64,000 bases of DNA from Siniperca chuatsi. Lineage: Eukaryota; Chordata; Actinopteri; Centrarchiformes; Sinipercidae. Position numbers and translations under genes: made by a program. Location of the stretch: NCBI RefSeq assembly GCF_020085105.1, contig NC_058055.1:16005822-16069821 (forward strand), in the 5' to 3' direction. This document shows positions 7,136-64,000 of this stretch, one piece after another. The notes beneath the pieces were generated by a model, which was not told the DNA's origin, searched no databases, and saw only the letters and a program-made list of their open reading frames with translations. Position 1 is the stretch's first letter; the number at the start of each line of letters is the position of its first letter.

Positions 7136-19592
<12,457 letters not shown>

Positions 19593-21753
19593 AACACACA
19601 CACACACACACACACAAGCAACACAATAATTGTCTTAAAGTTTAATTCTTGTGCACCGAGGTAACACTGTACACAGACACACACACCATGCATGCACCAC
19701 ACATCCTTCACATACACTTGTTGTTAATTCACAGTTCTTCTGACACACACTGCACAGTACTGACGCTGGGTTTACCTCAGCCCAGTTCCTCTCCCATCAC
19801 CACTGCTCTCTTACATCAGTATACTGCTAGCAGCAGTCTGTGGAAACCCAAGATGGCTGAGGTCCGTATACAGTATGCCACAGTGCAATAGTGTCATAGC
19901 CTACAGTGCTATTTTATGTGTTTTATATTTGCCATATTAGCCTCTTTTGCTATAGACACAAAGTAGTATATTCATATTAACTACCATGGAGTTTATTATC
20001 AAAAGTTGTTTGTTTGCAGTTTGCTGTTTTATACATATGTGGGGTAAATCGGATGCTTTCAGATGTGGTAGCACAATAATGTGCTTTATGGGAAAATTTG
20101 CATTCAGTGAGCAATTTTTAGAATAACATTTAAACATGTGTCCTTGTGCAAATTCCTACAAACCACTCACAGCTCAAGATTTAAGCACCGACATCTTACT
20201 GATAGAAAGTTTAATGAGATTATTATGATAATGAGTTTATGTGCAATGTTACAGAGAAATTAGAAGGCAGAAGGTAATGTAGGGGTCTGACTTAAGATTG
20301 ATGATTGAAGAACAGACAGTTTCAGAACAAACAGGTCTAGAAGAAAAATGAAAAGAGAAAGCGAACAAAGGTTGTTGTAAGTGAGTACCAGTGGGTGTCT
20401 CCTACTTTATAGTAGTAGCACAGGGACGGCTAAGGTGTCACGGATAGCTAAAAGTATGCAATTCTGCATTCCATGAGCGACTTAACTGAGAAGCTTATCC
20501 TCCACCAGAGAGTAAATATAACAGTGCAGTGTTTGTTCGAAACGAAAAACCGCATACTCTGTCCTCGATGCCACACGGGTTCGTAGCCCCCTGGTGTTAT
20601 TGTGTACTGTGAGCAGGGCTGCAAAGATGCCAAAAGTAAGGGTGCAGAGTTAGATTTGTCATTAGAATTATTCATGCCAACATACTGTTATGTGTTTAAT
20701 GAGATTGTGCCAGAGATGTCAGTGGAAGTTCAGTATAATACTATGTGGCCAAGTAGATGGATGTGTTGCTGGATTGGAGGAGAGAGAAGGCAGTGTTCAG
20801 CCTCATTGGCTCATCTCTTGGGTTTCCACAAGCCTCTGCCCTTCACTCACACCTGCCCAGTGGACGGCCAGTCTGAGGGATACTGTAGCCGTATTAGTCC
20901 ACAAGCCCTCATGACAGGGATGGGTTTTCAGCAGCGCCTAACCTCCTACTTAGATAGTTAAATAGTTTCCAAACTGGTGTTCACTCTTCGCTTGTTTGCA
21001 TTAATTTCCTGGTCTAATTTGGCAACTGTGTTGGTCGGTGAAAGTGATGCACTACACAGTAAAAAAAAAGAAAAAAAAAAAAGAAAAGAACTTTCTCTGA
21101 CAAGTTTAACCATGCCTGTTGGCCTACCTCTAAGTACAGCTTCACCACAGGGTGTCGTGACTTGTCAATGACTTGCACTTTGGCACAGGCATTCTACCCC
21201 ACACTAAATGTTAATCAGACACATACATACAAAAGTAGTAGATTTTTACTCCCCAGTCAAACCGTATGTTCCTTTGCACACTTGGCTGATGAATGCATGT
21301 ACAGGGGGCACTTAGCGCACTTAGCAGTTGTTAGCTGAGTTGACTGTAAATCAGGGCAACTCTGGGCAACTATATACATCTCAGTTGCCTAAAAACATCT
21401 GTGTGTTGTTTTTTTATTTTTAAAAGAAGATCATTTTAAGGAGCTAAAGTTCAAGTGAATGAGCAGGGAGTGTGAAAGAGGAGCTTCAGAAGCCCTCTGC
21501 TGGTTAGTGACTGCTGAATGTCTCTTTGGGTTGATGGGCGGTGATGCTGTGATCTCCGCTGCCATGCCCCTGCAACCTTCCCCGGTCTGACACCCCGCTC
21601 TGTCTCACCCCTGGTGACCCCAATGTCATGTTCTGACCACCGATCTCCCCGCTGCCCTCCACCTCCATTTCCTCCCCTCCTGAGCCCGGTGTGGTCTTTA
21701 CTCCCTCCCTGACCTATTTGGGAAGAGCTCTTCAAGTGAAAGAAAAGAAGAAG

Positions 21754-21853
<100 letters not shown>

Positions 21854-29370: not shown

Positions 29371-29639
29371 ATGTCTGGGTTGGCTGCATTGTGTCTCCTG
29401 CTCCTGCAGACTGGAGCTTTCGGGTTTGAAGTCATATTCGCAGGAGATTCTCTGAGTCATCAGGATATCACTGAAAGAGCGATCTTAAACGCCACCGTGC
29501 AGGTGTGCCGCGCTGTGGCCCTGGCTGAGGGCAAAGGCTTCACATTTCCTGTAAGGACTAAATTCAACCAAATTATGTTGACTTATTCGAAATGACCAGT
29601 GCCTGTATTATTAATAGATGTGATTTGTCACTGCAATAA

Positions 29640-29683
<44 letters not shown>

Positions 29684-32600
29684 CCACCGCCTTTTACTGC
29701 TGAGTCTGTTGCTGCTGCCTGTCAAGCGTCAAAATCATCCAAGAGCTTCCGCCAAACCATCAATTTAATCCAATCCCGCAATCAACTAGTAGACCTTCGT
29801 CATGCCTTAGACTCAAGCTATCACTTTGACAATGAGAATTTTGCTGAGGGAAGGAAAATCATCACAGAAGGATTATCAGCTGTGAAGGCCAGCAACAAGC
29901 GAGGGAACTTTGACGCTGCGAGAGAAACACTGGGAGTAATCTTACACCCTTTACAGGTACTTTCTATTGTTTGTTTGGTTTCCATTTTTAAGTTTCTTAC
30001 ACAATGTCACGCTTTAAAACTAAAACTCACTCAAGTTCAGCAAGCAGCACAACAGTGTATTTCCATAAGCCAGATGCAAATTAATTTCAAAATTGTATGC
30101 ACTGCAGTTTATTTTATTTTACAACAGCCTATTAAAGGGAACATCTTTAAATGGCTTGGTGAAGAGTTCTGAAAAAGTGATCTTGGTATTAAAAGATATA
30201 AGATGCTGCTTTTAACATGTTGTAAATATTTAACTTGTCTTCCTTTTTAAATAATAGGATTTCTACAGTCATAGTAACTGGGTGGAAATGGAAAACAAAT
30301 TCCCAAACTCCAATCTGATCAGATCAGACACCAGCATTGGTAACATTGCAGGTAAAGAGATCACCTAATATCAATGTGTGTTTGGCTGTGTTACCAAAAC
30401 AAAACAGATATGAGGAAAGATGTGATGTGATTAGAGAGATCATTTTACAAACCAAACACTGACAAAATGTCTTGTCTTGTTTCCTTTCCCACAGCTAAAA
30501 GTAGAGCAACCTGTCGCAACTGTAATGGAAACGACTGCACGAACAACATTTTGGAGGACATCCTACGGGCAAAGATACTGACCTCGGGATATTTTGGTGC
30601 TGTGCCTTTTTTCTCTACCAAACCAAACGGTAAATGTCCCACCTACCTGTCCACCAAAAGAATTGTGTTTAATTTAAAGTACAAAAAACTATTTATAAAA
30701 TGTCAATTTGTCCTAAGTAAAATGCATCCAATAATAGTCCGTGTCATCGTCCCCATATGTGAAGAAACAACTGTGGGCAATGGTGGCCGGCAAGTTTGCT
30801 GCTAAAATACTCAGAAATAGTGAATTTGAACCATTTTCAGATAATCATTGCAAATTTCTGGCACCAAGGCATGCAAATATTTTAGATAGGTATTTGAAAA
30901 TGTGTATGTTTTGGAAATATCAAATATTAGTTTAACATCTACATTGTTGATGTTCTTGCACAAATGTTCAATTTTAACTTAATGTTCACAAAATATTAAC
31001 TTGTGATAATGGATTCTGAACCAAATAAACACTAGCTGTGTCCCAGTTTTATACTACATACTAATTGTATGCAGTATACTAATCTTCATGGTGGAAGAAG
31101 TGATCAGATCTTTTACATATATATCGAATGACAATGTGAAAACTATGTGACAATGTCAAAGGGGTCGCTCATAGTGATGAACCTACAGAGAATTAGCACC
31201 TGGAGGCAGACAGACACAGTTAACGACTAGCTGGTGAACACAGTGGAGCATTTAGCAACTAAAGAGCCAGATATTTCCCTCAGGAGTTGGTGGAGACCAA
31301 AAACTGAGCTGAAAGAGAGAATATTGGACTTACATTCATCAGGTGGCCAGAAACACGACTCCAAAAGAATGATAATGTTTCTCCGTGACTGGTGGATGTG
31401 TAACAGGTGCGGGCATATCAACTTAAAAACTGATAATATGTCAATGTTGTGTTCCCAACTCAGTTATTGCAGGTTTAAGTAAAAGGACAGAAGTATTGGC
31501 ATCAAAATATATTTAAAGCACCAACAGTAAAAGTACTCACTATGCAGAATGGCCCATTTCAGAACAATGTGTATTATATTATTAGATTATTATTATTAAT
31601 GCATTAATTATATTTTGTATTATTAATCTGAATCTGCATATCAAATAAACGTAATAGAGTAGAACATCTGCCTCTAAAATGTACTCAAGTAGAAGTATAA
31701 AGTAGCAGAAAATGGAAATACTCAAATAAAGTACAAGTTCTATAAAACTGTACTGAAAGGGAGTTCAAAAACACATATTTTCCCTCTTACCTGCAGTGCC
31801 ATTTATCCATCTAGATTGTTTTGGTGTGAGTTGCCGAGTTTTGGAGATATCAGCCCTAGAGATGTCTGTATTTTTTTGAATATAATAGAACTATTTGGCA
31901 CTTGGCTTGTGGTGCTCAAAGCGCCAAAAAAATACTTGCAATACAGCAATGTCTCTTTCTAGAAATCATGACCCGGTTACTCAAGATAATCTACAGATGT
32001 TGTTGGAAGCAGATTCATGTAGGAACTATCTAAAAATGTTTTCCAGCTATTGGTGATGTCAGGGGATCACCAAAGTCATTAGAATTCATCCTCTGAGCAC
32101 TATGAATGTCTGTACAACATTTGATTGCAATCCATCTGTTAGTTTTTAAGAAATTTCAGTTCAGACCAAAGTGGTGGACCGACCCAACGACCAACATTGT
32201 TATAGTATTTTATTGGAATATCTGTTGGCAACGTTTGGATAGGATACAATATTCCTAGAGCCATGCTGCTAGCGTGCTTAAAAACATACATTGACAGAGA
32301 AGATTGTCTCGTAAAAAGCATTGTGGTTAAGAAGAAGGTTATGTAAAGCTGTATGAAACGTTTTGTTCTTGTTCTGTTTCTAATGCTCATCAGGAAAATG
32401 CAGCCATGGAGGTTTTTTTGATCAAACAAGTGGGATCCAGCCTAAAGGTGGGATCAACAAAGACAAGTTGAGCTCCAGTCATGGACATCTCCACATTAAA
32501 GCAGCAAATATGGCGATGGCTGCAACCAGTGAGCTACTACAGGACATTCGAGGGGCCGCTGGTGACAGACTATTCCTATTGTATGAAACCCATTCTGTAT

Positions 32601-35600
32601 GTTTCAGTTACGTACTGTAATGAGGCGAAAACAAAGGGTTTTCATCTCTTTGTTTTATCCGTCTTTCTCCATCCCTCAGGATGATGGGAATCTCCAGAGG
32701 ATCCAGTAAAGCTCTTGGTTTCGCAATCAACATGAGAGGAAGCATGAGTGATGACATTGAAGCAGTGAGGACCGTCACTTCCTCTATAATCAACAGTAAA
32801 GCGAGAAGAGAGGATGAACCCTCACTTTACATTCTTGTGCCTTTCAATGATCCAGGTAGGATCTTAATGCCCCAGACTAGACTTTACAAAGTTTTTTTCC
32901 TCTGAAGTGATGTAAAGGGATACGCTACCAAGTTTATGAATTTATCTTCATCTACTTGCCTGCTAAACTGTAACAAACTCAATGAAATAAACCAGCAGAA
33001 TTGTATGTGTTGTCATGTGTTGTATACTTGTTGGAATATTATGATTGTTCAAATAATATGTCAGCAATATAGTAAGAAAAGTAACAGAATCTGTAACATA
33101 GTCATCCATCATAATACTCCACAAACGCAAGCTCAAGATGAGGATTAAAATAATTTCTTTCTCTACGTGAACCCCAGATTTTGTGTCGCTGACAAAGACT
33201 ACAGACCCAGAAGTGTTCAAGACTGCTATTAATTCACTATCAGCATCCAGTAGAGGAGATCTGAAGGAACTGAGTCTTTCAGGGCTTCAGGTGCTATGAT
33301 GTCTTTGAGACTACTTGCCTCTGCAAAACTTGATAATATGAAAAAAGTTAAAAGTAAAACTACTGTATCATTGCTGTCCTCCTCTTGCTCATATAGCTGG
33401 CTTTAAGTAGTGCTCCTTCAAATTCTGAGATCTTCGTCTTCACGGATGCACCTGCTAAAGACACACACCTGAAAAGCACAGTGATTGCTCTCATAGAGCG
33501 GACCAAGACAGTGGTGAGTAGCTCCTCACTGTAAAAAAAAAAAAAAATCAACATATAGAGTAAAAAATGATAGTGTAATAACTGTGTATAAAGTAATAGA
33601 AAAAGAACTTAAAAACTCATAATGTAAAAACCTGCCTGTACTATAATACCAAGACTAGAGTTTAGAGACACTATGAGTGATGCTGTAATTAAGAACAGCA
33701 GTGCATTGAGCTAAATGCTAATGTCAGCATGTTAACATGCTTTCAATGACAGTGTTAACGTGCTGATGAGTTGTTGGTAATGTTTACCATGTTCACCATT
33801 GTAGTTTAGCGTGTTAGCATGCTAACATTTGCTAATTAGCATTAAACACAAAGTGCCGCTCAGGCTAATGGGGTTGGTTTTGCAGGTATTGGTCATAAAC
33901 CAAAGTATTTGCCAAAAAAAAAACTTGACCTGATGATGGCGCTCAATGAAATGTTTAAGAATCACCCGAGAGGGACATGAATGCCTGTACCAAAGTTCAT
34001 GGCAGTCCATCCAATATTTGGACCAAAGTGGTGGACTGTGCGACATAAACTTATTAAATTTAACATAATAATACAAAATTATGAGATACTAAGTCAAAAA
34101 TCATGACATAAATTATGAGATAATGCTATGATAAAAAAATAGGAAATAGTAAGTCATAATTACTTAATTAAATTTTTTAATTAAATGTTAAAATTATCAC
34201 ATATTCACTGTTAATAAAGATTATAAAGAGCTTGGTTTTTTTGTTTTGTGAAATAATTTTTTCCTCTTTTTTTATGGTTTTGCATGTTTTGTGAATTCTA
34301 AACATAAACCGCTATTAAAGACCTTTTTGATTAAACTTAAAGCCCCTTATGTGTGTGGGCTTTACACCTCAAATTCTCATTCACTTGTTTTCTTTTCAGG
34401 TGAACTTCATGATTACTAACATACCGGGATTTCGTCGTCGAAGACAGAGTGGTAACGACCAACAACAACGACGCAGTCAGATGTCAGAATCAGATGCTCA
34501 GCTGTACAGAGACCTGGCTCAGGCTTCAGGAGGTCAGGCTATTGAAGTCACAAAGAGTGAGCTCCCAGTGGCCACCCGCATCGTAATAGAGTCCTCCAGC
34601 TCCTCTCTGGTATTAACAAAATGCTCTCACTGACCATTACCAATGACTTTTCTAAATAAAATAAATTCAATTGTGTCACCAGTTTCATTTACCCTCCTAG
34701 GTGACCCTTCTGCAGGCAGCCAGGAATCTAGGAAAGGCAGAAAATTTCACCTTCACAGTTGACGAGTCAGTAAGAAACCTCAATATTTACATCACTGGGA
34801 GCTCTGTCATCTTTACTCTCATCAGTCCCTCAGGTGATACTTTGCAGATTAAATCTTTTAATCTTTGTGTTATTTGTATTATTGTAAAGAATGTCTAAGA
34901 AATTTAAATGTTTTATTGTTAAAAATGAATGCAAAAAGTTTGTTTAACTCTTGGCTTTTAATCAGTGTGCTTCATTTCTTGCCATGGCTTTGCTTTTAGG
35001 TGAATCTCAGCAAAGCACCGACACAACAGGATCATTGATCACTGCATCCCAGTCAGTGGGAAATTTCAAGACTCTGCACCTAAAAACACAAGTGGGACTG
35101 TGGGAAATTAAAATGGTGTCAACTAATCCCTACACTCTGAAGGTCATGGGTGAGACCACATAATGAATACTTAACTTTATTATTATTTTAGGTGTAACTA
35201 TCCCTTACCTTTTATGGTTCATCCAAAACACAAAAGAAAGTGATATGTAGCCAGGCAGAGGTTTGTTGTTATTTTCTGAGATTTTGGAGATATCCAGCGC
35301 TACACCTTATGCCACCTATAGCAAACAGAGTGGAGGTGAATGGAATTTGTTTTTTGGTGTTCAAAGCATTAAATGTGTCATTTGAAATATACAACAATTT
35401 TCTTTCCAGAGACAATGTTGCAGGTACTTGGAATAATTACCAGACTTTGCTTTCACTGGAACTACTTTCTGCTGAAAGAATATTGGAACTGCTGTTTTGT
35501 GGAGGCTTGAGCTTAGTTTTGTAATTTTAATCTTTAAACAAACACCACCAAGGATGGTGATAAATGCTCTTCATAGGAACTGTAAAAGTAATGAATAATA

Positions 35601-37114
35601 ACTACTGACCATGATTTTCTTGTAACTTATTTATTTGCAGGTGAGAGTCCCATTGACTTCCTGTTTGACTTTTTGGAAGTATCGCAGGGCCTGTTTGGAG
35701 GTTTTCATGTTGTAGACAATCGTCCCAGAGCTGGTAAAGGAAACAGAATTTGTAATATGCCAAAGTCGTTTGATTTACTTCAGCATATTTGAGTGGATTT
35801 TCTCTTTTTCTGAAGGTGTTAATGGTAGCCTGTTGGTGACGGTAACCGGGAGTGACTCCGCCACCGTGACAGAAGTCATTCTGGTTGAATCATCGGGGTC
35901 AGGAGAGGTTAATGGCAGCGTGGAGGCTCAGGGTGGACAAAACTTCTTAGTTCGGTTTGACAGGATACCATCACAGGTGTTTGTGGTGCTCGTGAAGGGG
36001 CAGAACAGCAATGGTTCCTCCGAGTCCTCAGTGATCTTCCAAAGGCAGTCACCCACCAACATCAGAGCGTCTACTCTAACTGTTACTGCTGTAAGTAAAA
36101 TGCATCCATGACTTTTAAGATAGGTTGCACTGCCACAGTCTTTTAATTATATGACGGATACTGACTGTTTTCCATTTTTCCTTCTGTTTTTAGGTTGATT
36201 CAAATAGCATCTTAGTACCAGGAACACCACTTTCTGTTCCCTTCTTGGTGATGACCAGCGGTGTGGGAGGAAACTTCAGCATCCAAGCCACCAATGACCA
36301 AGGTTTTACTTCAACTTTCCCGTCCAGTTTATTCCTGGAAACTGGAGGCAGTGCTACCGGTACAGTGAATCTCACAGCACCTCTTAACACCCCGTCTGGT
36401 ACTGACGTCACCCTGACACTTGAGGCAGAGGCTCCGGGAGGCACAGACACCAACTATGTTGTGCTGCGTTTCACTGTCCTTACAACGGTAACTCTTCAGT
36501 TGAGGAAGAAAATCACATTTCAATAAATGTTAAGTTAGTGAATAATCATTCTAGCTGATTTAATCCTTAGAATCGTTGTATTTATTGGTTAACTCACTGA
36601 TGTAAAACTGGTTGACTTTATCCACTTTGTCTTCTCCTCATAGGTGACCGATTTCACTCAGCCGGTGTGTCAGCTGCTCAGCCTGCAGTCCCACTGCTCT
36701 GATGATTGCAGCTTGTCTATGTGGGAGCTCTCTGTTCAGGTGACTGATGGGGCTGAAGGGACAGGTATTAACCATGTTAGCCTCAGACAGGGCAACGGGA
36801 CCATGAAAAGCAGCCTGGCCGCTGGCAACGAGAACATAAAGCCAGTTTCCTACAGTGCGTCTTGCTGTTCGCCTGATGTGGAGCTGCTGGTTGTGGATCA
36901 GGTGGGTAATGTAGGCTCCTGTTTCTACAGCGTCAGGAATACAGCCACCAACAACTCACAAGCCGTGACCATCACTACAACCACCAATAGCTCACAGCCT
37001 CCAGTAGCAGCAGGTCTTGTGTCTTCGTCTACCAGAGCTGTTCAGCCTTTTCTTCTTTGCCTTTGCTTCACGATCCTAGGGCTCAATTTACCATTTGAAA
37101 TGGGGATCAACTGA
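29371..37114 (+). CDS. VWA7-like protein (von Willebrand factor A domain containing 7 family), 966 aa
   Basis: Exons: 29371-29550, 29684-29956, 30258-30351, 30495-30629, 32394-32580, 32680-32855, 33178-33290, 33397-33513, 34400-34609, 34701-34833, 35000-35149, 35641-35733, 35816-36090, 36194-36487 and 36644-37114. All phases join. The acceptor at 29345 suggests a further 5'UTR exon. Family landmarks, in order: a signal peptide (residues 1-18), HQDITERAILNAT, DFYSHSNWVE (152-161), TCRNCNGNDC, ILTSGYFG, KCSHGGFFD, GGINKD, a VWA domain starting near residue 290 with IFVFTDAPAKD, and an RRRR basic site (437-440) that could suit a furin-type protease. Ig-like beta-rich segments and a Cys-rich part (CQLLSLQSHC) follow. 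A hydrophobic C-terminal tail follows Ser/Thr/Asn-rich sequence, which suggests a GPI or membrane anchor. The VWA metal-site motif is changed (NMRGS where human VWA7 has DTTGS). Human VWA7 is about 891 aa. Function is unknown; it is probably secreted or at the cell surface. Confidence 0.9.
29642..29683 (+). repeat. (GT)n tract forming the 3' splice site of vwa7-like intron 1
   Basis: About 20 GT units run directly into TAG|CCACCGCC, the acceptor of the second coding exon. The intron is only 133 nt and has no usual polypyrimidine tract next to the acceptor. The exon phase and protein match confirm that this AG is used. Confidence 0.85.
31085..31760. repeat. Nested dispersed repeats in vwa7-like intron 4
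   Basis: The outer parts (31085-31130 and about 31480-31760: GAAGAAGTGATCAGATC, AAAAGTACTCACTATGCAGAA, GTATAAAGTAGCAGAAAATGG) match the repeat at 46622-47105. They are split by a second block at about 31130-31480, with words such as AGAGCCAGATATTTCCC and GGCCAGAAACACGACTCC. The layout suggests one repeat inserted into another. No coding sequence. Confidence 0.6.
32045..32290 (-). repeat. Dispersed 'GTTAGCATGCTAAC' repeat, partial copy
   Basis: It contains GGGGATCACCAAAGTCATTAG, ATGAATGTCTGTACAACATT, GACCAAAGTGGTGGACCGAC and CTAGAGCCATGCTGCTAGC, the far end of the family seen at 25290-25660. It lies just upstream of the vwa7-like exon at 32394. Confidence 0.6.
33700..34045 (-). repeat. Dispersed 'GTTAGCATGCTAAC' repeat, copy 2
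   Basis: Opposite orientation to the copy at 25290. Shared words are GTGTTAGCATGCTAACATTTG, CTAATTAGCA, CATAAACCAAAGTATT, GACCTGATGATGG, ATGAATGCCTGTACCAAAG and GGACCAAAGTGGTGGAC. It lies in the vwa7-like intron between 33514 and 34399. Confidence 0.75.
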
Positions 37115-37244
37115 GTGTTTACATGTTAGCGTGGAGAAGCATTACGTTTTAAAAAGTTCTTTTGGCTTTGGAAAATCAACTGCATACTCAGTTGCCATAG
37201 GTACACATAGCTAAAACTAATGCAGTCCAATACAACAGCCCTGC

Positions 37245-37250
37245 AATAAA
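37245..37250 (+). terminator. Likely poly(A) signal of the vwa7-like gene
   Basis: AATAAA lies 131 nt after the stop codon, followed within 60 nt by T- and GT-rich sequence (TTTGTTTTCTAG, GCTCGTTTTGT). It is the first canonical hexamer downstream. Confidence 0.5.
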
Positions 37251-40200
37251 TCCTGTGAATTTGTTTTCTAGACCTGAAAAGTGCTCGTTTTGTATGACCA
37301 ACACTCAAAAACCTAAAGATATGCAATTAAGAAGCCAGAAATGGGGAATGTTTGACATTTTTGTTTCATGGCACTGGCCAGTACCATGATAAAACTGAAT
37401 ATACCATCCATTACCATCATTATACCATGGTAGTTTTTTGTAAAGGAAGGTTACAATGTTCAGTTTTTATTGAAAGCATTTTAGAGAGGTATAATTCAAC
37501 ATTATGGTCATTTTGGAGGCTGTAGTTTGTTGTGTTGTTGAATTGTATTGTATTATACTGAGAGGTGTCTAACATTTGGGCTATGCTCGTTGATATGAAT
37601 GGATTTAGCTTTGTGAACCTAATCACCTGGCAACTGAGTGTATGTTCAACCGGGTGATTAATACTACTGTAAAATTAATGTTAAATTCTTTAAGCTAAGC
37701 AATATGTTAACCACATGCACTGTATGTATTACAGGGTGCCTTTGTAAGACTTAAAAAAAGCTTAATTGGGTTGTGAATTTGTTATGATTAAGACATAGGC
37801 CATGTGAACATGTCAATTTAATTATGATATCTCAATCAATGATCATGCATTCATATTTTGAGTACTACTGCCGATATTAAGTTGTGGAACAGTATTGTTG
37901 ATTCAATGATTAGATTTATTTGATAATTTAAAATTATAAATACACCTGAGGTTTGCTTCTTACACAGGTGATTAAAAAACATGATGACACATTAAACCTA
38001 ATTTAAAAAAAATTGTCCTCTGTGGTTCTTTTGGGAGAGAGGTGTATGGCAACAGCTGAGGGAAAGAAAGGTGACCTACCAGTGTCAGATTACATTGCAT
38101 CATCAGAGGGTAACAGCTATATTAGATATCCACATAATTTCTAACAAATAAATACCATTCAATAAACCTATTTGTGTAGTATTGCATAGATTGGATATCT
38201 GTAGGTCCAGCATCAATCTTAGGAATGCAGCAACAGGTGATTATTCACATTATAAAAATTAAACATCATCATTGGTTATTATCACCAAAACGTGACAAAA
38301 TTAACAAACACTAGTCCGTACATAAACTGCAGGTTAGATTAGATAACATCATAAACCAGTTTGCTCACCCATGCACAGTGATAAATAACAAAAAATACAC
38401 AAGTCAGACAAGTTACAGCAGACAATGTATGAAAAACATACTGCCGCAACAGTAGTAACACTAACACACAAACTAACAGATATTCCAAGAAGACATTAGT
38501 GTAGATCAGGAGCTCACATAGTCGCTAAACAAAAACAATTCAACAATTTAAAACATTTTTGGAGCTTGACACACACTAAGAACTAAAAGTCAGGATATCT
38601 CGACCTCTGCTGCTTCGATTTTAAAATTTCTGACATTGGTACTTTGGTACAAACATTCGTGATAAAAAACAGGATGACCTTGAAACTGAAGTATGGTTTC
38701 AACTCTCCTCCTCGTTCTTTCCTTTCAAAACCGTCTGTAATGAATCAGAGCTCAAACCAATTAAAGAACCAGAGCTTTTAATAAACTTGTTAATCCCGTT
38801 CCTATCATTGGCAGTAATGGTAGTAATGATAGGAACATAGTTAGGGTTATACTTAAGTTTAGGGGTCACAACAGTGCAGCACTTGAGCAAGGCAGCTAAC
38901 TTTGAGGGCCACGTTGGTGGACTAAAAGTACTTTGTGATCACTTGTGTTGAACAGACACTTGAACCATAGATCGAGTGCCCTTGATCAGTATAAGTCATT
39001 GTATATCATTAGTGTAAATCATCAAAAAATGCTGTTTTGCTCTTCTCACCTAATCAATGGTTTGGTCAGACCAAATCACTATTGATCAAGACAGATTAAA
39101 AGAAGAAATTTTAAAATCGGAGCAGCAGAGGCCGAGATATCCTGACTTTTAGTCAGCTAAACCACTGAAATGTTGGTGCTGAAAACTCACAGTTGCATTG
39201 TAAGTTAATTGAGCAGCTGGAGAGAGAGAGGAATGTTATCTGTACTTAATATCAACAACCAGTACAACTACAAGGAAGCTTATCAATCATGTCAATCTAC
39301 CTGTGGTTATAGAGGACAACACCGGACGCAACAGGTTTGCTTCTATCTACAGAAATCTTAAATGAACTACCCATTGTTCAGCTACAGTACCTGCCTGCCT
39401 GCAGGGTTTGCTTTCATTAGTGTCAATGTGTGTTTTTCTTTTACTTTCTTTCTTTTTTTTCATTAAGAAGAATGTATGTCATGCAAAAGACATGCCAACA
39501 ACCAGCAGGTTTTGTATTGTCACTCCCAAACAGAAAGTGAGTACATCCGTGTACACAGCAGACACAAACCTTACTGGAAAATGTTTAACTACCACTATCT
39601 GGGATTCATCGGGTATTATTTCAGATGTTTAAGTTTCATTAAGTAACCAGTCTTTGCCAGGTCTAGCTTAGTGTAAAGTTTTTTCAGAAATTTATTTAAA
39701 ATTCAACAGAGCCCAATCATTCCTGTTTAACCAATTATTCTGAAAAACAAAGACAAAATAATCTGGAAATACAGAAATCAGATTTACCAGAAGTCATATA
39801 GATTATTACACATTTTAGCTATAGCAATAACTACAGCAGTCAGATTCCTGTGTTTTTCCTTAATGGACAAAGATTTGGTTTCTGTTCCTTCACAATGTTG
39901 CATGGGAAAACTCATCTTTGCATCATGAACTTTTCTAAAGGTTTCTGTTAAAGCCTTGTTTCCCCTCCTCTATTGTTGTGCCCACTTCAGTTGCCTTTTC
40001 CCCTGTTGTGTTTTCTGCCTTGGAGACATTATCAACTCCCTCCTCTTACAAACACAAGGGATATTACTTGACCTTGTTGCTTTTGTGTTTAGTCATCATT
40101 ATACTGAGTCAGCTGTGTACATTGCTGCCATCTGTCTAAAGTTAAAAAGAGTTGCACACAGTGACCTAAAGAAATAAACAATTTAAGCATTAGAATACTC

Positions 40201-40280
40201 CTCAGAAAATCCTGATATGATTAAAAAAGAAACAGAGATGTATATGTATCATCTTTCTCTCGTGCTATTTCTTGAAAAAG
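37251..40280. other. Spacer between intact and decayed vwa7-like copies
   Basis: No exon of the family (in particular none of exons 1-4) is recognisable here, so the second copy lacks its 5' part. The stretch holds the inverted-repeat element at 38583-39152 and otherwise AT-rich sequence with only short unsupported reading frames. Confidence 0.6.
38583..39152. mobile_element. Non-autonomous element with 48-bp terminal inverted repeats
   Basis: The left arm 38583-38630 (CTAAAAGTCAGGATATCTCG...) and the right arm 39105-39152, read in reverse complement, match at 46 of 48 positions. The enclosed 474 bp has no long reading frame. The length and long inverted ends fit a MITE or a foldback element. 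A clear target-site duplication is not visible at the outer edges. It has no resemblance to the flanking gene. Confidence 0.75.
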
Positions 40281-41434
40281 AAAATGCAGCCATGGAGGTA
40301 TATTTGATCGAACCAGTTACATCGAGCCAAAAGGTGGGATCAACAAAGACAAGTTCAGCTCCAGCCATGGACACCTCCACACTGATGCAGCAAATATGGC
40401 GATAGCTGCAACCAGTGCGTTACTACGGGACATTTGAGGGGCCGCAGGTGACAGACCATTCCTGCAGTATGAAACCCATTCTGCATGTTTCAGTTATGTA
40501 CTGTAATGAGGTGTCGAGTAGTTCAAAGTTTTTTTTCATCTCGCCATCCCTCAGGATGATGGGAATCTCCAAAGGATCCAGTAAAGCTCTTTGTTTCTTG
40601 ATCGACACAACAGAAAGTGGGAACAGTGGATGAGCCCTCACTTTACATTCTTTCACAACCTTTCGGATGCTACAAATTAGTCAAATTATCTCTTTGCTCA
40701 TTCTGTCCAATTTAGAACAAAACAAGCATCATCTAGGTGCTTGTTTGCAAATTGTGAAAGTAAATCAGGTGAAGAATAAAAATGTTTCTTTTTCTTGTCT
40801 CCTAATGAACTTCAGGATTTGGGCCGCTGATAAAGACTACAGACCCAGAAGTATTCAAGACTGCTATTAATTCACATTCATCAGCGTCCGGTGGAGGAGA
40901 TGAGGAGGAACTGAGTCTTTCAGGGGCTTCAGGTGCTGTGATGTGTGGCTCAAAATCTGCCCCAAAACACTTGTTGATGTGTAAACAACTAAAACTATTC
41001 TTGCTATTCCATACCTTCTTCCTCATATAGCTGGCTTTAACTAGTGCTCCTTTAAATTCTGAGCTCTTCCTCTTCACGGATACACCTGCTAAAGACACAC
41101 ACCTGAAAAGCAGTGATCGCTCTCATAGAGCGAGCAAGACAGTGGTGAGTATGTAATCTAGATGTCTTGTGAGATTGTAAGAATTTCTTGACACATGTTT
41201 GAGCATTTTTATTGTATTTTTTTGCTTTTGTAATGTTTAGTTATGATTCCTTATGTACAGTATACAATACTGGTTTGTGATGTACTATTCGTGTAATCTT
41301 GAGGCAGGCTTGGAGTTGTGCACCTGTCTAATTGGCTGTAGCCACATCTTTGGGTGGGACTAAGACTATTTTAATGACACTCACCTGTTTGATTCCTCTA
41401 AACCTAACAAAATGCCACTTTGGGCTAAAAACAC

Positions 41435-41640
41435 TGCAGAGCTGCAATAATTAGTCAATTAATACAGGGGTTGATTGAAAATGAATCGGCTACAATGTTT
41501 TCAGTATTTTTTTAAGATAAAATACCAGAATTGTCTGGTCCAGCTTTTCAGATGTGAGTATTTGCTGGTTTGCTCAATCTTCTAAACTGAATATTTTTGA
41601 GTTTTGGACTGTTGGTCAGACAAAACAAGACATTTAAAGA
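41435..41640. repeat. Dispersed non-autonomous element, partial copy 3
   Basis: It starts with GAGCTGCAATAATTAGTCAATTAAT and holds GTCTGGTCCAGCTTTTCAGATG and AAACTGAATATTTTTGAG, matching the family at 16073-16424. It lies where exons 9 and 10 of the decayed vwa7-like copy would be. Confidence 0.6.
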
Positions 41641-42216
41641 AAAAATCTAAAGGAAGACTCAACAGGGTTTGTAGGAAAGGTGGTCTGGTGATCATATGGC
41701 CACCAGTCACTCATTCAAGCATTTGTTTGCAGTTATATTCTTTTCAAAATGTTTTGATGTTTAAATATACTAAATGCAGCACATTTAATTAGTGACAAAT
41801 GTTTTAAGCAATCATTATCTGTATGCTACTTGATTCATTCTTGTAACGGTTTCCTAACAGCTTGCTTATTATTGGTTTTTGTTTAAAGGTGAATATCAGC
41901 AAAGCACCGACACAACAGGATCATTGATCACAGCATCGCAGTCAGTGGGAAACTTCAAGACTATGCGGCTAAAAAACCAAGCTGAACTATGAGAAATGAA
42001 AATGGTGTCAACTAATCCCTACACTCAAGGTCATAGGTGAGACATGACATGATTTAATTTGATCTGTAATTTTGTCTTCTGTTCAAGTAGCTTTCATTGT
42101 TCAGTTTAATTTCTCAGGGATTGTTAGCAATGTTAGCAGCATGGCTCCAGGGATGGTAATGTCAGTCAGTCCACTTTGGTCCAGAAAAAGTCCAGAAAAT
42201 TTTTTGTTATTATCAT

Positions 42217-42278
42217 GTCATTACATGAATTTTATCAAATTTCTATCCATGAAATTCTGGTAAAATTCATGTAATGAC
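42217..42278. repeat. 18-bp perfect inverted repeat (hairpin)
   Basis: GTCATTACATGAATTTTA at 42217-42234 is the exact reverse complement of 42261-42278, with a 26-bp loop. It lies in an intron of the decayed vwa7-like copy, close to the left edge of the repeat at 42283. Confidence 0.85.
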
Positions 42279-42282
42279 AGTC

Positions 42283-42630
42283 ACATCTTCCTCAGGATGA
42301 ACCGTAATCACTTTGGTAATCCCTTAACTTTTCATCCATCATCAGGTCAAAATTTCAATTTGTCCAATACAATACTAGACTTTACTTTATGACCAAATGC
42401 CTGCAAAACTAATGACATTCTCATCAGCCTCAGATGTACTTTGTGTTTAGGGCTACTCAACAAATGCTAGCTAAATGCTAGCTGAACTAAGATGGTGAAC
42501 ATGGTAAACATTATACATGCTAAACATTGTTATTGTGAGCATGTCCATATGTTAACATTAGCATTTAGCTCAAAGCACTGCTGTGTGTAAGTACAGCCTC
42601 ACAGAGCTGCTAGCATGATTGTAGACTCTC
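42283..42630 (+). repeat. Dispersed 'GTTAGCATGCTAAC' repeat, copy 3
   Basis: It shares with the copy at 25290 the order CCTTAACTTTTCATCCATC, CCAAATGCCTGCAAAAC, CTCATCAGCCTCAG, GTTAACATTAGCATTTAGC and GAGCTGCTAGCATG, in the same orientation. It is inserted in the decayed vwa7-like copy. Confidence 0.75.
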
Positions 42631-43757
42631 AATCTTGTTACATCATTCTTTCTGAAATCTAAAACATGATTCCTGGGTGCCCTGACCATATTCTAAGCTA
42701 AATGGCTGGTAATATTTGAACCCTTTGTCATTTTAACAAAGGCTGTCATGCTGTTGTATCAAAACTTAAACTGTTAAACACACTTGTGGAATGTTAAGGT
42801 GGTGAAAAAAGAGGCCACTACAGGAATGATAAAGGCCTTTTGTCATTTTTTCCATCATGACTTTTTCTTTGCAGGTTAGAGTCCTATTGACTTCCTGTTT
42901 GACTTTGTGGAGGCATCGCAGGGCCCCATTCACAGGATTTTAAAATTGCTCAAATTGCTCTTGACACACAATTTGCTGATATGCTGATAACATCATCTAG
43001 TCAGACATGATGAATTTTCTTTTTCTTTAAAAGGTGTCAATGGTAGCTTGTTGGTGTCTTTAACGGGGAGTGACTCCGCCACGGTGACAGAGGTCGCTCT
43101 GGTTGAATCATCAGGGTTGGAGGAGATTAAAGGAGTTGTGGAGCCACAGGGGAGTGGAAGCTTCTTAGTTCAGGTTGACAGGATACCATCAGTGGAGTTT
43201 GTGGTGAGGGTGAAGGGGCGGGATGACAGTGTCACCCCCAGAGCACAGGAACATCACATCAAACATGAGAGGATATGCAGCAACTAAAAGTTTAAATGTT
43301 TCATCACTACAAACACTGACTCTTGTCTGATTTCCTCTGTATTTAGGCTGATTCAAATAGCATCTTGGTACCAGGAAAACCTTTCTCTGTGATGACCAAT
43401 GGAACAGGGGGAAACTTCACCATCCGAGCAACCAACAACTGACGTTTTGACTCTCCAACCAGTTTATTCCTGGATACTGGAAACAGTGCTAATGGTACAG
43501 TGACCCTCTCTGCACCTCTTAACACCCCTTCCGGTACTGACGTCACCCTGACCGTTGAGGCCGAGGCTCCGGGGGGCGAATATACAAACTACGTCGTACT
43601 GTGTTTGTTCATTGTTAACACGGGAATACTCCTACTGAAGAATCGCATTTATTAAAACAAATCTTTGGTAACTCTTTGTTTTACACATTTCCTGTGAAGT
43701 TTCCTGGAAAGCACTCTGTAATTTGTAATTAGGTTATGCTAGCAATTCAATTAATTG

Positions 43758-43795
43758 AATTGGTACACATTCAATTAATTGAATGTGTACCAATT
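43758..43795. repeat. Perfect 38-bp palindrome
   Basis: AATTGGTACACATTCAATT is followed immediately by its own reverse complement, with no loop. A further AATTCAATTAATTGAATT palindrome abuts it on the left and repeats its core. It lies between the last two exon remnants of the decayed vwa7-like copy. Confidence 0.9.
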
Positions 43796-44270
43796 GAATA
43801 CCTTCTCTATATTCCCTATAATTAGTAACAAATTATTTTCAGAAAACTTCTTGGAAACTTGTGAAATTCTTAAAAGAAATTACAGACCCATAAAATAAAG
43901 CATTACCTTCTGCCTCTCTAAATTCCTTTACCTTCACATTGTTGGTTAACTCACTGATGTAAAACTAGCTGGACTTTACCTACTTTTTTCTTCTCATCAT
44001 AGGGGACTGATTTCACTCAGTCGGTGTGTCAGCTGCTCAGCCTGCAGTCCAACGGCTTTGAAAACTGCAGCTTGTCCATGTGGGAGCTCTCTGTCCGGGT
44101 GACTGATGGGGCTGAAGGGACCAGGACCAGGTGCACCAGCTGCTATCTCTGTGTCCACCAAAGTCACTCAGTCACCCCTTCTTTGCCTAAGCATCGTGGT
44201 ATTAGGGCTGCATATACTGACAGCACTGGGCATCCAGAGACTACATGTCAAAGCTGCATTAATCTATATT

Positions 44271-45642: not shown

Positions 45643-55861
<10,219 letters not shown>

Positions 55862-58736
55862 TTAATCATTTTGTGATAGTTATACGGGTGATTTCTTTTG
55901 AAAATGGTGAAAATGGTTTGATCAAATCTCATCCCTAAAATTGAAGAAGACATCTCATAGAAAAAGCAACCAAACAAATGCTGTCTGAGACCACAGAACT
56001 GATTAAAGACTACAGAAGAGCTTGATATCACAATATCGCTGCAATCTGTCTTATATCTCCTCCTTCATCGTCTTTGCCATTCAGACAGATTGTTGAATAG
56101 TGTTTATAAATGTTTTCTTGCTGAACAGTAACTATAGCTTTCTGCTGTTTTTGCTGTTATTTGTCTTCAAGATGACTCAGTAACTCTATGGTGCTTTCAA
56201 GCTTTATATTTTGAAAGTTGACAGGGCACTTTGCTCACCTTTGGTATTTATTTGATTTAGATTGAAAGTCACATAAGTCACTCATAATTAGGCAGCTGAC
56301 TGATACAGGCCTACTGTCATATTCATACTGTTTATCCATCAATACATTTTAAAAGGAACTGAAAACTGTTTTTCTCAATCAGCTTCTTACTAGGAGCCAT
56401 GGGATCCTACACGAACACTTTCAAAGTCAAAGTTACAACAGTTTTGGTTATTTCACTTGAGAGATTTCTGTATTTGTGTTTTTTTCTGCTCTTCTCACTG
56501 GTTTGAAATGGGTGGGACTCAGTTAGAAAAATGTGATGTCACGTACTTCCATGCACCAATCAGGATTTAGGAACATTTGAATGAGAATCTGATTAACAGT
56601 TGGTGGGTCGTTACTGTCTGATCAAACTACCACCACACAGTCCTGATGAAGCAGATTAGCTGAGTTTTTGACTGTTGTTAAACTTAATAAATAATACATA
56701 AAGATGTTTTTTACTTTGATGTTGCTTATTTAGTCATGAATATTTAATGTTGTAAAGAAATACTTTGAGTTGAAGCAAAGTTTTCAGGGGCTTTAAATAA
56801 CCATCTGCTGTTCTCTGATTAATGAACTCTGTGATGTGTTTTTAGGCTGTTTGTTGACTGACAACTTGCTGATCTGTGGCTGTCCCAGGCCCCAGGCCAG
56901 AGGGACGGTAATCCTCAAAAACACAGGAGATAATCTATAACAGTCATCATTGCAGATATTAATAGTTGATTGTCCCACCAAACACCATGTGTGGGTCAAA
57001 CATCAAAGACAAACACTGAGACACAAATAACAGATAAAAGGCCTGTGAGAGAACGTAATATATATGACAGATACAATGTGAAGTTAGCAATACACAGCAC
57101 ATCAGTTACATTCAATCACACCACATGATACAATCCCCATGAGAATAAGTTTAAAACTTATCTAACATGCATTCCCTGACTGCACTGGCTTACATAAGGC
57201 CAAAACTGAAAACCCAAATCTAGAAGTAGGCCTGCATCAGTCCCTGAAGACGTCTGATAAATGCAGCAGTTCTTGGATGATCATAAACTCAAACTGTCTG
57301 GTTCATTGCAATTAAAATGAAACCACAAAGAGCTCCAACTGAGGCCAGGGTCCAGTTATTTTTCTGTGGAAATTTGTCAACTTATCAGGTCTGTGACCCA
57401 AAAAACAGTGTTTAGTGATGATGTCTGACTTTCAGATAAGAATAACCTGCATTTAGCCCCAAACTGGGCCTGAAGACTGTGGTACACATAACTCAACCGG
57501 GCAGATGAGAGTTTAGAAGCTCTCGCTTCTTTCCTGGAAGCTCTCCGTTATCATGAGATTTACATTCCAGCATTTCAGGGCGAACACAATATCACACATA
57601 CTTGTGTATATTCTTTTATTGGTTCTGTGTCGGAGACTTGTTGTTAGTAACAATAGTATTTTAATTCTGTGTTTTTTCCACCTGGCTCTCAAGATAGTGT
57701 TAATATACAAAAGAAGAGGAAGAAGCTCTCCAGCTGCCTGCTGTTATGACATCCACAGAAAGAATCCAAACTACCCTTGTCTTAATTATCTTGTCTTCAT
57801 TTTTCTCAAGCATCTGACAAGAAAACCTGATTATTTATTTAATGTGCATACCATATCATCTGATTTGAACATGAAAATGCCTTGATCATGGTCTGCTTTT
57901 AAGAAACAGTTTGAAAAACTAAAAAAATCTAACTAAAAAAATTGAATAAAACAGAGATATCTTAAAGTTCATAGGCATTGACTATTTCAAGAAAGTTTCC
58001 ACTCTTTCCAAGTTGATCTGCATACCACTAGCATGAGCTGACGGCAGGCTGCCCAATCTAAAAACTTGTATACTTTGGGAAACCGGTGGCAGAAATATGT
58101 GATGTGATTCAAAGTAAATTATGTTAAACGTGGAAAACCTGACACCTCCTTTAATTCTGCCTCAGGTTGATGAGATAGCCCTCCTCTGGCGCGCATGGCA
58201 CGGCTCTGGAGAGCAGAAACAGAGCGAAAGAATGACACTGCCACTTTCCTAATATAGACATGACAAACTGCACTGTCCCACCCGGGGCCAGCCGCTCCTC
58301 CCACCCGCCAGCCTGATCCTAAATAGTCCCAGAAAGAAGGCAACGCACTCTGTGGCACTTTATCGTTGATGAACGCACCGTAAATTTAAACAGCCAAAGC
58401 GCACAGCCTACACAAACACACATAAACACAGGAACATAGGCTGTCAGGGGCGCGGGAGGTGTGAGGGAGGGAGAGACGGAGGGGGGAGGTTAGTAATGTA
58501 CAACGTGCTCCTTAAAAGTAGCCCACAGCTGTCATGCACGACTCAAGATCTGCTCCGTCCACCACTGGGGGGGGGGGTGCACAATCACAATGTACCGACT
58601 GTTAGGATTTCCAAAGGTGGGGAAGCACTCACTCCTCTCCAGCAGTGCAGTAAAGACGCTGACGCACCCCTCACCCCACTGCAGCACCAACTCTGATACA
58701 CACATATTAGGAAATATAGTCCACAAGACAGCTCAC

Positions 58737-62003: not shown

Positions 62004-62484
62004 TGGTAGCTACCCGGCACAATATAGCAAATATTGATGAAGACACATGAAAGCACGAGAAGAGGAAAACAGAGGCTATATTCTACCTAACATCAGATCG
62101 GACTATTCAATCAAGTATATATCAAGTTGATGACGGAGAAACCAGCAATAATGTAAAGAGTGAATATGTGCAGGCTCAGGCGTATTATCATTTGAAACAA
62201 GTTACCCATATTCATTTGGATGATTGTTTTTGCTGCTTTTTGAATGTCTTCTGAAATTGTTTATATACTACACAGCGTTTCTTCCAATTTGACTCATAGC
62301 TTTAATTTCAGTTGACAGGAACCTTCATAGCCTTGTCACCGTTCTTGCACTGAGACAAGAATCTCATATCACAAGATTTCACAGGGGCTGTTTGCGGATC
62401 TGCATGGAAGAAACGTACAGAAACGACTTAACATATCCTTTAAGGCAAGAGGCATTTGTTTTGTCCATTTCTCACAGATGTACA

Positions 62485-62786
<302 letters not shown>

Positions 62787-62793
62787 GTGAGGG

Positions 62794-64000
62794 TTACATG
62801 GTGTGGTAAAGAGTACTAGCAGTTCTTTTCTTTAGCCGCCTCAGGGGGTGAGTCCTTCCATATTGCTGCCTTGTTGGCATAAGTGTCAGCCCAGGCAAAT
62901 GCAGAGAATCTTGGTCAGAGTTGGGGAGTTGTCGTCCCTCCGGACTCTGATTTGATGGTGGAGGTGGTGAGGTTTCCCCAGCTTCAGAAAGCCTCTCTGC
63001 ACCAGTCCCGAGGACTTCTGACTGCTGGCCAGCTGAGGAAGGAGAATTGTGGACCCGCTGCTTCTTGGACTCATCGCTAACTGCGTGGGTCGGAGGTTCT
63101 GCTGAGGACGGAGCTACAGTGGAGCGGCTGAGGTCCCACTCACTCAGGTCATTGGCGAGCAGCTCCAGACAGCCCAGTTTGGCCAGAGAGGCTGAGCGCT
63201 TCATCAGGGATGGAGGGGTCAGCCCTGCCTGGCGAAGCCTGGCTTCCACCTCTCTGACGCTCCTATGGACACTGCTACCTCGCTTCTGAGTGGTTCTGGC
63301 ACTGAGGCCAAAAACCTGGTCCACATACCTGGCCTTGCTGGCTCCGCCCATGCTCACCTGCTGCAGGAAGGCACCCAGCTCGCACAAAGTCTCCCATGTC
63401 TCCCTCATGATAATGTCGCTATGGGGTGCCTCTGGGGAGCAGTCCCAGTCTGTGCCTGACTCGAGCTCTGTCACGCCCTCCAAACACAGGAAGTTCACAG
63501 AGGCAAAGGGAGAATGGGCAGAGCAGTGGAAAGAAGAAGAGGTAGAGAGCAATCTAGTATCAGCAGGCTGGAGTTTGTGTCCTTTTGTGCTTCTGTCATT
63601 ATTTCCTAGTGCCCCCATCTTAACTACATCACCACCTTCCCTTTTAACTGGTCCAACCTTCCCATCATCCTCCTGCTGCTGCTGCTGCTGTTGTTCTTCC
63701 TGCACATTGCTAACTATTGACACCTGCGAGCAAAATGATGCATCCTGGGGATTAGACACTGCCGTAAGATGGACGCTGGGTGGACGCCACTGAGAGCAGG
63801 AGGAACTGCTGGAGAGGGACGGTGGAGATGAGGAGGGTGACGGAGTCTCATGCCCCTGTTTCATTCTTTGCTCCAGCTGTCGTGTGACACGCCGCACGGA
63901 CCCCCTCGTCCAATCACTGTAGAGACCAGCAGGAGCCTCCTCTTCTTTGTTTTTCACTTCCTCTTTAACGTCCTCAGCTTCCTTCTGTGATAAAATATCT
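62794..64000 (-). CDS. ssh2: Slingshot protein phosphatase 2, C-terminal tail (partial)
   Basis: Slingshot phosphatases dephosphorylate and activate cofilin, which drives actin turnover. This is the last exon; the frame is open to the window edge, and what looks like a start at 63957 is a GTG inside it (the upstream frame reads SQKEAEDVKEEVKNKEEE). Visible conserved parts are RGSVRRVTRQLEQRMKQ, a poly-Gln stretch of seven residues coded by a CAG-type run near 63670-63690, SKARYVDQVFGLSARTTQKR, LRQAGLTPPSLMKRSASLAK (followed by LGCLELLANDLSEWDLSR) and the ending QYGRTHPLRRLKKRTASTLYHTM, close to the end of vertebrate SSH2. The phosphatase domain itself lies outside the window. Linkage to coro6 supports SSH2 over SSH1 or SSH3. 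Confidence 0.9.
   Translation of the reverse strand, partial: DILSQKEAEDVKEEVKNKEEEAPAGLYSDWTRGSVRRVTRQLEQRMKQGHETPSPSSSPPSLSSSSSCSQWRPPSVHLTAVSNPQDASFCSQVSIVSNVQEEQQQQQQQEDDGKVGPVKREGGDVVKMGALGNNDRSTKGHKLQPADTRLLSTSSSFHCSAHSPFASVNFLCLEGVTELESGTDWDCSPEAPHSDIIMRETWETLCELGAFLQQVSMGGASKARYVDQVFGLSARTTQKRGSSVHRSVREVEARLRQAGLTPPSLMKRSASLAKLGCLELLANDLSEWDLSRSTVAPSSAEPPTHAVSDESKKQRVHNSPSSAGQQSEVLGTGAERLSEAGETSPPPPSNQSPEGRQLPNSDQDSLHLPGLTLMPTRQQYGRTHPLRRLKKRTASTLYHTM

Follow-up and report, generated by a model that had tools for sequence, protein, structure and literature searches.

Probable loss of metal binding by the VWA domain of a Siniperca chuatsi VWA7-like gene that lies beside a decayed tandem paralog

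The A1 and A2 domains of von Willebrand factor are naturally occurring VWA domains that function with no metal ion in the metal-ion-dependent adhesion site (MIDAS), and their motif departs at positions other than those altered in the gene described here. For calcium-channel alpha2delta-3, one report describes a VWA domain whose MIDAS is incomplete and whose effect is weaker, in a family whose paralogs have a perfect MIDAS (PMC5092059), and a further source belongs to the literature on MIDAS loss (PMC6624252). A literature search on Pactolus, MIDAS, and integrin together gave no match, and VWA7 itself is represented, among the matches listed, mostly by human association studies and, for fishes, by one mention each in the white bass and turbot transcriptomes, the white bass paper being also the single match for VWA7 together with Siniperca. 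Here, we analyzed a 64,000-nucleotide stretch of the Siniperca chuatsi genome (assembly GCF_020085105.1, contig NC_058055.1, positions 16,005,822 to 16,069,821; hereafter the window), which carries an intact VWA7-like gene (the live gene) and, next to it, a decayed copy (table 1). The original prediction held that the intact gene had lost the D-x-T-x-S site of its VWA domain, still present in the dead copy, and with it, perhaps, metal-dependent ligand binding; the two motifs do read NMRGS and DTTES, respectively, and the binding is probably gone, as judged from the loss of the motif.

The live gene has an open frame with GT-AG borders at 14 of 14 introns, and its protein is 100% identical over 966 aa to the deposited Siniperca chuatsi VWA7-like protein P0002. 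It belongs to the VWA7 family, the members of which are probably secreted, with all four Pfam domains well above their cut-offs: VWA7_N at residues 65-289 (313.6 bits, cut-off 27.5), VWA_4 at 301-477 (198.9, 27), GBD_Hemicentin at 493-592 (114.9, 27), and Ig_VWA7 at 713-808 (88, 27). In its exon 6 (32680-32855), which reads MMGISRGSSKALGFAINMRGSM, the segment FAINMRGSM stands with N307 (AAC, 32729-32731) and R309 (AGA, 32735-32737) at exactly the positions that had been predicted, so that the first MIDAS loop, N307-M-R309-G-S311, departs from the D-x-S/T-x-S pattern. DFVSL and SSRGDLKEL, which had also been announced, are both present: the former at 33178-33191, its D codon starting with the last base of exon 6, where nearly all other proteins have FGPL, and the latter at 33246-33272, where most have GGGD. 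The acidic residues of the second and third MIDAS loops (D376, E379, D403) are kept.

These departures are rare among relatives, which we took as the best 120 of 1636, of 1453, and of 1021 matches after removal of long predictions (P0001, P0041, and P0118 from the set covering two paralog clades, A and B, and 12 from a wider set spanning catfishes, carps, salmonids, herring, and the vwa11 type). The long predictions were scanned by motif pattern only, and one or two units were found in each. Counted as proteins rather than species, since the sets contain isoforms and near-duplicates (e.g., P0013/P0014, P0048/P0136), D307 is retained in 259 of the 260 other aligned relatives that have a single unit (153/154 in the A/B set, 106/106 in the wider set). 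Asparagine occurs in the A/B set (n=155) only in P0002 and in the mackerel protein P0115, with aspartate in the other 153, and the 106 proteins of the wider set are identical at D307, T308, T309, G351, P352, G374, D376, E379, and D403. At columns conserved in at least 98% of the 155 A/B proteins, the live gene differs at 5 of 20 on the MIDAS face (D307N, T308M, G351V, P352S, G374R) and at 0 of 152 elsewhere, and at the 95% level at 7 of 23 on the face and 2 of 207 off it, the face columns having been picked after the changes were seen. A scan with 75-aa windows, to which this does not apply, retrieved four or more departures in three of the 155 proteins: P0002 and P0115, both at 300-375, and P0136, at 79. 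Single departures from the motif were also observed elsewhere, namely DTTGG in P0013/P0014 (Lates), DTTVG in P0162 (Hemibagrus wyckioides), and DKTES in P0072 (Siganus).

Orthologs with an intact DxTxS had been proposed as a sign that the odd motif is a sequence error, and indeed DTT is read in the Enoplosus ortholog P0003 and in nearly all relatives, and one assembly only is available; the orthologs do read DTTGS, but the error does not follow from it. An error would have to account for seven or more base changes away from the common residues, spread over about 530 bases and an intron, that all keep frame and splicing; errors would not cluster on one face; and near-identical matches in the 718.8 Mb assembly, among the best candidates, are the window's own exons only. 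A sequencing or assembly error thus appears extremely unlikely, and, given changes that cluster on one face with frame and splicing preserved, we read the motif change as a derived, local loss.

In the model of the VWA domain, strands lie at 301-307, 339-345, and 397-402 and helices at 310-330, 359-367, and 381-391, spanning the same residues as in the DTTGS ortholog, and the domain matches the I domains of integrins and of Pactolus, that is, it is predicted to adopt an I-domain fold. Foldseek with the whole 966-aa model returned low TM-scores (template-modelling scores) and was not used alone, and three matches of a sequence search against PDB, all with E 0.65 or worse, were discarded. From I-domain topology, we infer that the MIDAS loops lie at 307-311, 368-380, and 403-408, with the hairpin 346-353 on the same side; the live gene departs in three of these four loops and leaves only the third MIDAS loop unchanged. 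We propose that a tandem A/B pair of percomorph fishes would have met two fates in Siniperca, B becoming a pseudogene and A being altered on the metal-binding side of the VWA domain (in loop 1, D307N, T308M, and T309R; in the hairpin, G351V and P352S; in loop 2, G373S and G374R), while the VWA fold and the other domains would be retained. As the first coordinating aspartate is lost and an arginine replaces the coordinating Thr/Ser, the domain would no longer hold Mg2+/Mn2+, any remaining partner binding would be metal-free, and the new arginines R309 and R374 may substitute for the charge of the absent ion.

We consider it likely, on sequence grounds, that the VWA domain of the live gene now works independently of metal, while constraint persists on its fold and on the remainder of the protein. 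Besides the after-the-fact choice of face columns, several points weigh against this: S311, D376, E379, and D403 remain, so weak metal binding is possible; AlphaFold2 is insensitive to point changes; a recent relaxation instead of a new working mode is possible; and the motif comes from a single assembly, with no other sinipercid among the matches listed and with deposited proteins that derive from the same assembly and hence give no independent confirmation.

A rival explanation sees in the live gene a nascent pseudogene, free of constraint over its whole length, in which the MIDAS changes are merely the first visible hits. The adjoining copy is dead, and at least four further family loci in the same genome, all with DTTGS, could between them cover any metal-dependent role (two close together at C3:21.12-21.14 Mb, one at C3:27.54 Mb with deposited protein P0249, and one at C7:9.26 Mb, possibly the counterpart of human VWA7), and the live gene is thus not the only member of the family to have survived. 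With regard to rates, obtained by amino-acid polarisation with 12 clade A outgroups of our choice and by pairwise live/dead counts, exons 6-7 are accelerated, with 18 derived changes in the live gene versus 4 in Enoplosus A, when the rest of the gene has 78 versus 70 (Fisher p=0.011), and in exons 5-8 nonsynonymous divergence (dN) between the live and the dead copy is 0.132 for a synonymous divergence (dS) of 0.15, a ratio to which the dead branch contributes part. Yet the frame is open and all introns are properly bordered, none of the 152 conserved columns off the face is changed, and the overall rate is near that of the ortholog, with 96 versus 74 derived changes over the whole gene (p=0.11). 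We accordingly regard a nascent pseudogene as distinctly unlikely; the few changes off the face and the near-ortholog rate argue for a gene that is under constraint overall but has been released on one face, as far as sequences can tell. The view of the live gene as the fast-evolving copy is likewise restricted to exons 6-7, even though its end branch in the tree is longer than that of the Enoplosus ortholog (0.14 vs. 0.087).

The same two substitutions, D307N and T309R, are found in P0115, the B copy of Scomber scombrus, when the A copy of that species, P0027, reads DTTGS. P0115 is also altered at C303, P352, and G375 (S303, K352, E375), and the live gene, alongside D307N and T309R, at C303, P352, and G374. 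In a fused prediction of Lota lota (P0174, outside the counts), the second unit reads VIATTASM near residue 1159, with D replaced by A. Such a recurrence could speak for an adaptive switch, in which positive selection favored a metal-free interaction, perhaps with arginine as a built-in cation, and the new basic residues of the face (R309/R374 in the live gene, R309/K352 in the mackerel B copy) and the net charge of the VWA domain (-1 vs. -8 in the sister) would agree with it. However, with the dead copy and four paralogs as guides to the ancestral codons, D307N is a GAC to AAC change after ATC, a CpG transition and hence an easy hit, T309R being a transversion (ACA to AGA); Scomber gained an acid as well (G375E); and the same net charge occurs in 5 of 153 other proteins, for which reason it fails as a signature of the live gene. 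Positive selection thus appears doubtful, though it deserves consideration. Under the reading that we prefer, of a metal-independent domain in a constrained gene, the locus offers a natural experiment, with one face of a VWA domain released, 152 conserved columns elsewhere untouched, and two exact changes independently repeated in a mackerel, which makes the need for metal in the VWA domains of a little-studied family testable.

The decayed state of the second copy, as originally proposed, is evident from stops, shifts, and lost exons. Besides the stop in its exon 5 (table 1), stops stand in exons 11, 12, and 14, exon 6 is short by about 58-59 bases directly past DTTES (from the offsets of two matches), exon 15 is short by about 59 residues, and exons 1-4 and 9-10 gave no tblastn match at E 1e-3, nor any when four query proteins were run against the whole window at E 1e-2. 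The FLIDTTES that it had been predicted to keep is there, 8 bases away from the predicted 40603-40626, and FGPL (40818-40829) and SGGGDEEEL (40887-40913) follow. It is closest to proteins that other fishes have in clade B: in tblastn sums over 158 queries, P0045 of Enoplosus ranks first (731.9 bits), clade B proteins fill the first 27 of the best 40 rows, and clade A enters only with P0003 of Enoplosus (624.6 bits), the live gene itself reaching 563.8. In trees, the decayed copy, which fills 47% of the columns, falls in a supported clade B with Thunnus, Seriola, Poecilia, and a flatfish, and the live gene stands beside Enoplosus A, so that A and B form an old tandem pair of which B was lost in Siniperca. 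A root placed inside clade A by vwa11-type outgroups was not relied on.

The dead copy is therefore read as an old tandem paralog of percomorph fishes, no recent duplicate, rather than the sister that it had been called. It follows that a fast copy outliving a more conserved recent sister, a scenario to which the end branches (0.14 live vs. 0.089 dead) lend some color, is very unlikely, given a dead copy that groups with an old clade, on under half of the tree columns, and a live gene that, taken as a whole, has not evolved significantly faster than its ortholog. The end branch of the dead copy barely exceeds the one leading to Enoplosus B (0.083), which suggests that the death of the B copy in Siniperca was fairly recent.

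The two clades have seemingly not evolved in isolation. Within-species A-B identity, as an excess corrected for row and column means in 30 species (n=29 for exon 1, n=28 for exon 15), is highest at exon 5 (0.039, z 7.6), followed by exon 6 (0.023, z 5.9), is also raised, though less so, at exons 15, 9, and 4 (z 4.9, 4.4, and 3.1), and stays small at exons 10-12 (z 0.1, 1.1, and 0.0). Rates shared within species may explain part of this excess, which centring only reduces; the pairing was our own, with Siniperca and Thunnus (A and B from different species) omitted, and an uncorrected comparison of 34 A/B pairs has the same exon 5 peak. Between the live and dead copies, dS is 0.15 in exons 5-8 versus 0.43 in exons 12-14 (Fisher p=0.001, from rounded counts), and the identity in intron 5 (table 1) would be a sign of gene conversion. 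At the start of the VWA region, the nearest B is the own-species B in only 9 of 30 species, hence conversion is partial and repeated. Recurrent conversion between the clades, strongest in exons 5-6, is thus supported by these comparisons, and such within-species exchange can mislead trees there. As a separate observation, an inverted repeat whose arms agree at 71% of 283 columns links an intron of the live gene (33677-33939) to one of the decayed copy (42336-42602) and is perhaps an old dispersed element.

Both the conversion peaks at exons 5 and 6 and the contrast in dS could suggest that the odd motif was copied from the dead into the live gene. The dead copy, however, reads DTTES, FGPL, and GGGD and hence is not the donor, so we take this explanation as refuted, barring another NMRGS fragment elsewhere in the genome; on the same evidence, the live gene's changes most simply postdate the last exchange.

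One of these changes created an Arg-Gly-Asp (RGD) at residues 374-376, a triplet that no other protein in a set of 158, nor any of the 106 wider ones, has at this position. In PMC8138772, the RGDLxxL motif is described as most critical for alphavbeta6 binding, and RGDLKEL (374-380) conforms to RGDLxxL; it would, by sequence, resemble ligands of integrin alphavbeta6 and its kin. It lies in the loop ahead of the helix starting at 381, with a mean pLDDT (predicted local distance difference test) of only 77 over residues 371-380. An I-type domain could conceivably have given up its metal site, with R309 as a built-in cation beside N307, and have switched from metal-held ligand binding to serving, through RGDLKEL in a second loop of that site, as a ligand for RGD-binding integrins, the mackerel B copy having taken the same first step on its own, and a VWA domain that once held ligands by metal would then be offered as an integrin ligand. 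We hold this to be quite improbable: as the motif needs no more than G374R within a GGGD loop and leucines that other proteins also have (7 of 154 at 377, 62 of 154 at 380), chance comes first as an explanation, and RGDLKEL may be buried or fortuitous.

Elsewhere in the window, a coronin-like gene lies in the region 46000-56000 on the minus strand, with DUF1899 at 55301-55861 (105.6 bits) and WD40 at 48593-48898. Plus-strand frames at 13600-19600 are, by eye only, what we take to be TAO-kinase-like, a name that Pfam did not give them; together with the coronin-like gene, they would resemble the order of the human TAOK2/CORO1A region. Long simple repeats appear as repetitive reading frames at about 47600-47800, 21700-21850, and 62400-62800.

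Table 1. Positions of the live gene, the decayed copy, and their main features in the window.
Feature	Positions	Strand	Remark
Live VWA7-like gene, clade A	29371..37114	+	15 coding exons, 966 aa
Intron 5, first part, live gene	32582..32625	+	42/44 bases match decayed copy
Exon 6: VWA domain start, first strand and MIDAS loop 1	32680..32855	+	FAINMRGSM replaces FVIDTTGSM
N307 (AAC), M308 (ATG), R309 (AGA) replacing D-T-T	32729..32737	+	
Exon 7: hairpin loop DFVSL and MIDAS loop 2 SSRGDLKEL	33178..33290	+	
RGDLKEL, residues 374-380, RGDLxxL-type motif	33252..33272	+	
Exon 8 with third MIDAS loop FTDAPAKD, unchanged	33397..33513	+	
Decayed copy, clade B	40280..44240	+	remnants of exons 5-8, 11-15
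In-frame stop TGA, exon 5 of decayed copy	40435..40437	+	
FLIDTTES of decayed copy, D-x-T-x-S kept	40595..40618	+	
Exon 7 remnant of decayed copy with FGPL and SGGGDEEEL	40818..40913	+	

Set against known systems, the live gene shares with other teleost VWA7-like proteins the four domains in the same order, and its protein is 81-82% identical to the Enoplosus ortholog, but it has lost D-T-T in loop 1 and GP and GG in the neighboring loops. The I-domain of Pactolus, a beta2-integrin-like protein (PDB 2iue, "Functional Switching of the Rossmann Fold"), is matched by the predicted live VWA domain, although Pactolus is a relative of integrin beta chains with other domains and other substitutions. 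Alpha2delta-3 is, like the live gene, one paralog of a family with part of the site missing (PMC5092059), and differs from it in that its partner is known, a calcium channel.
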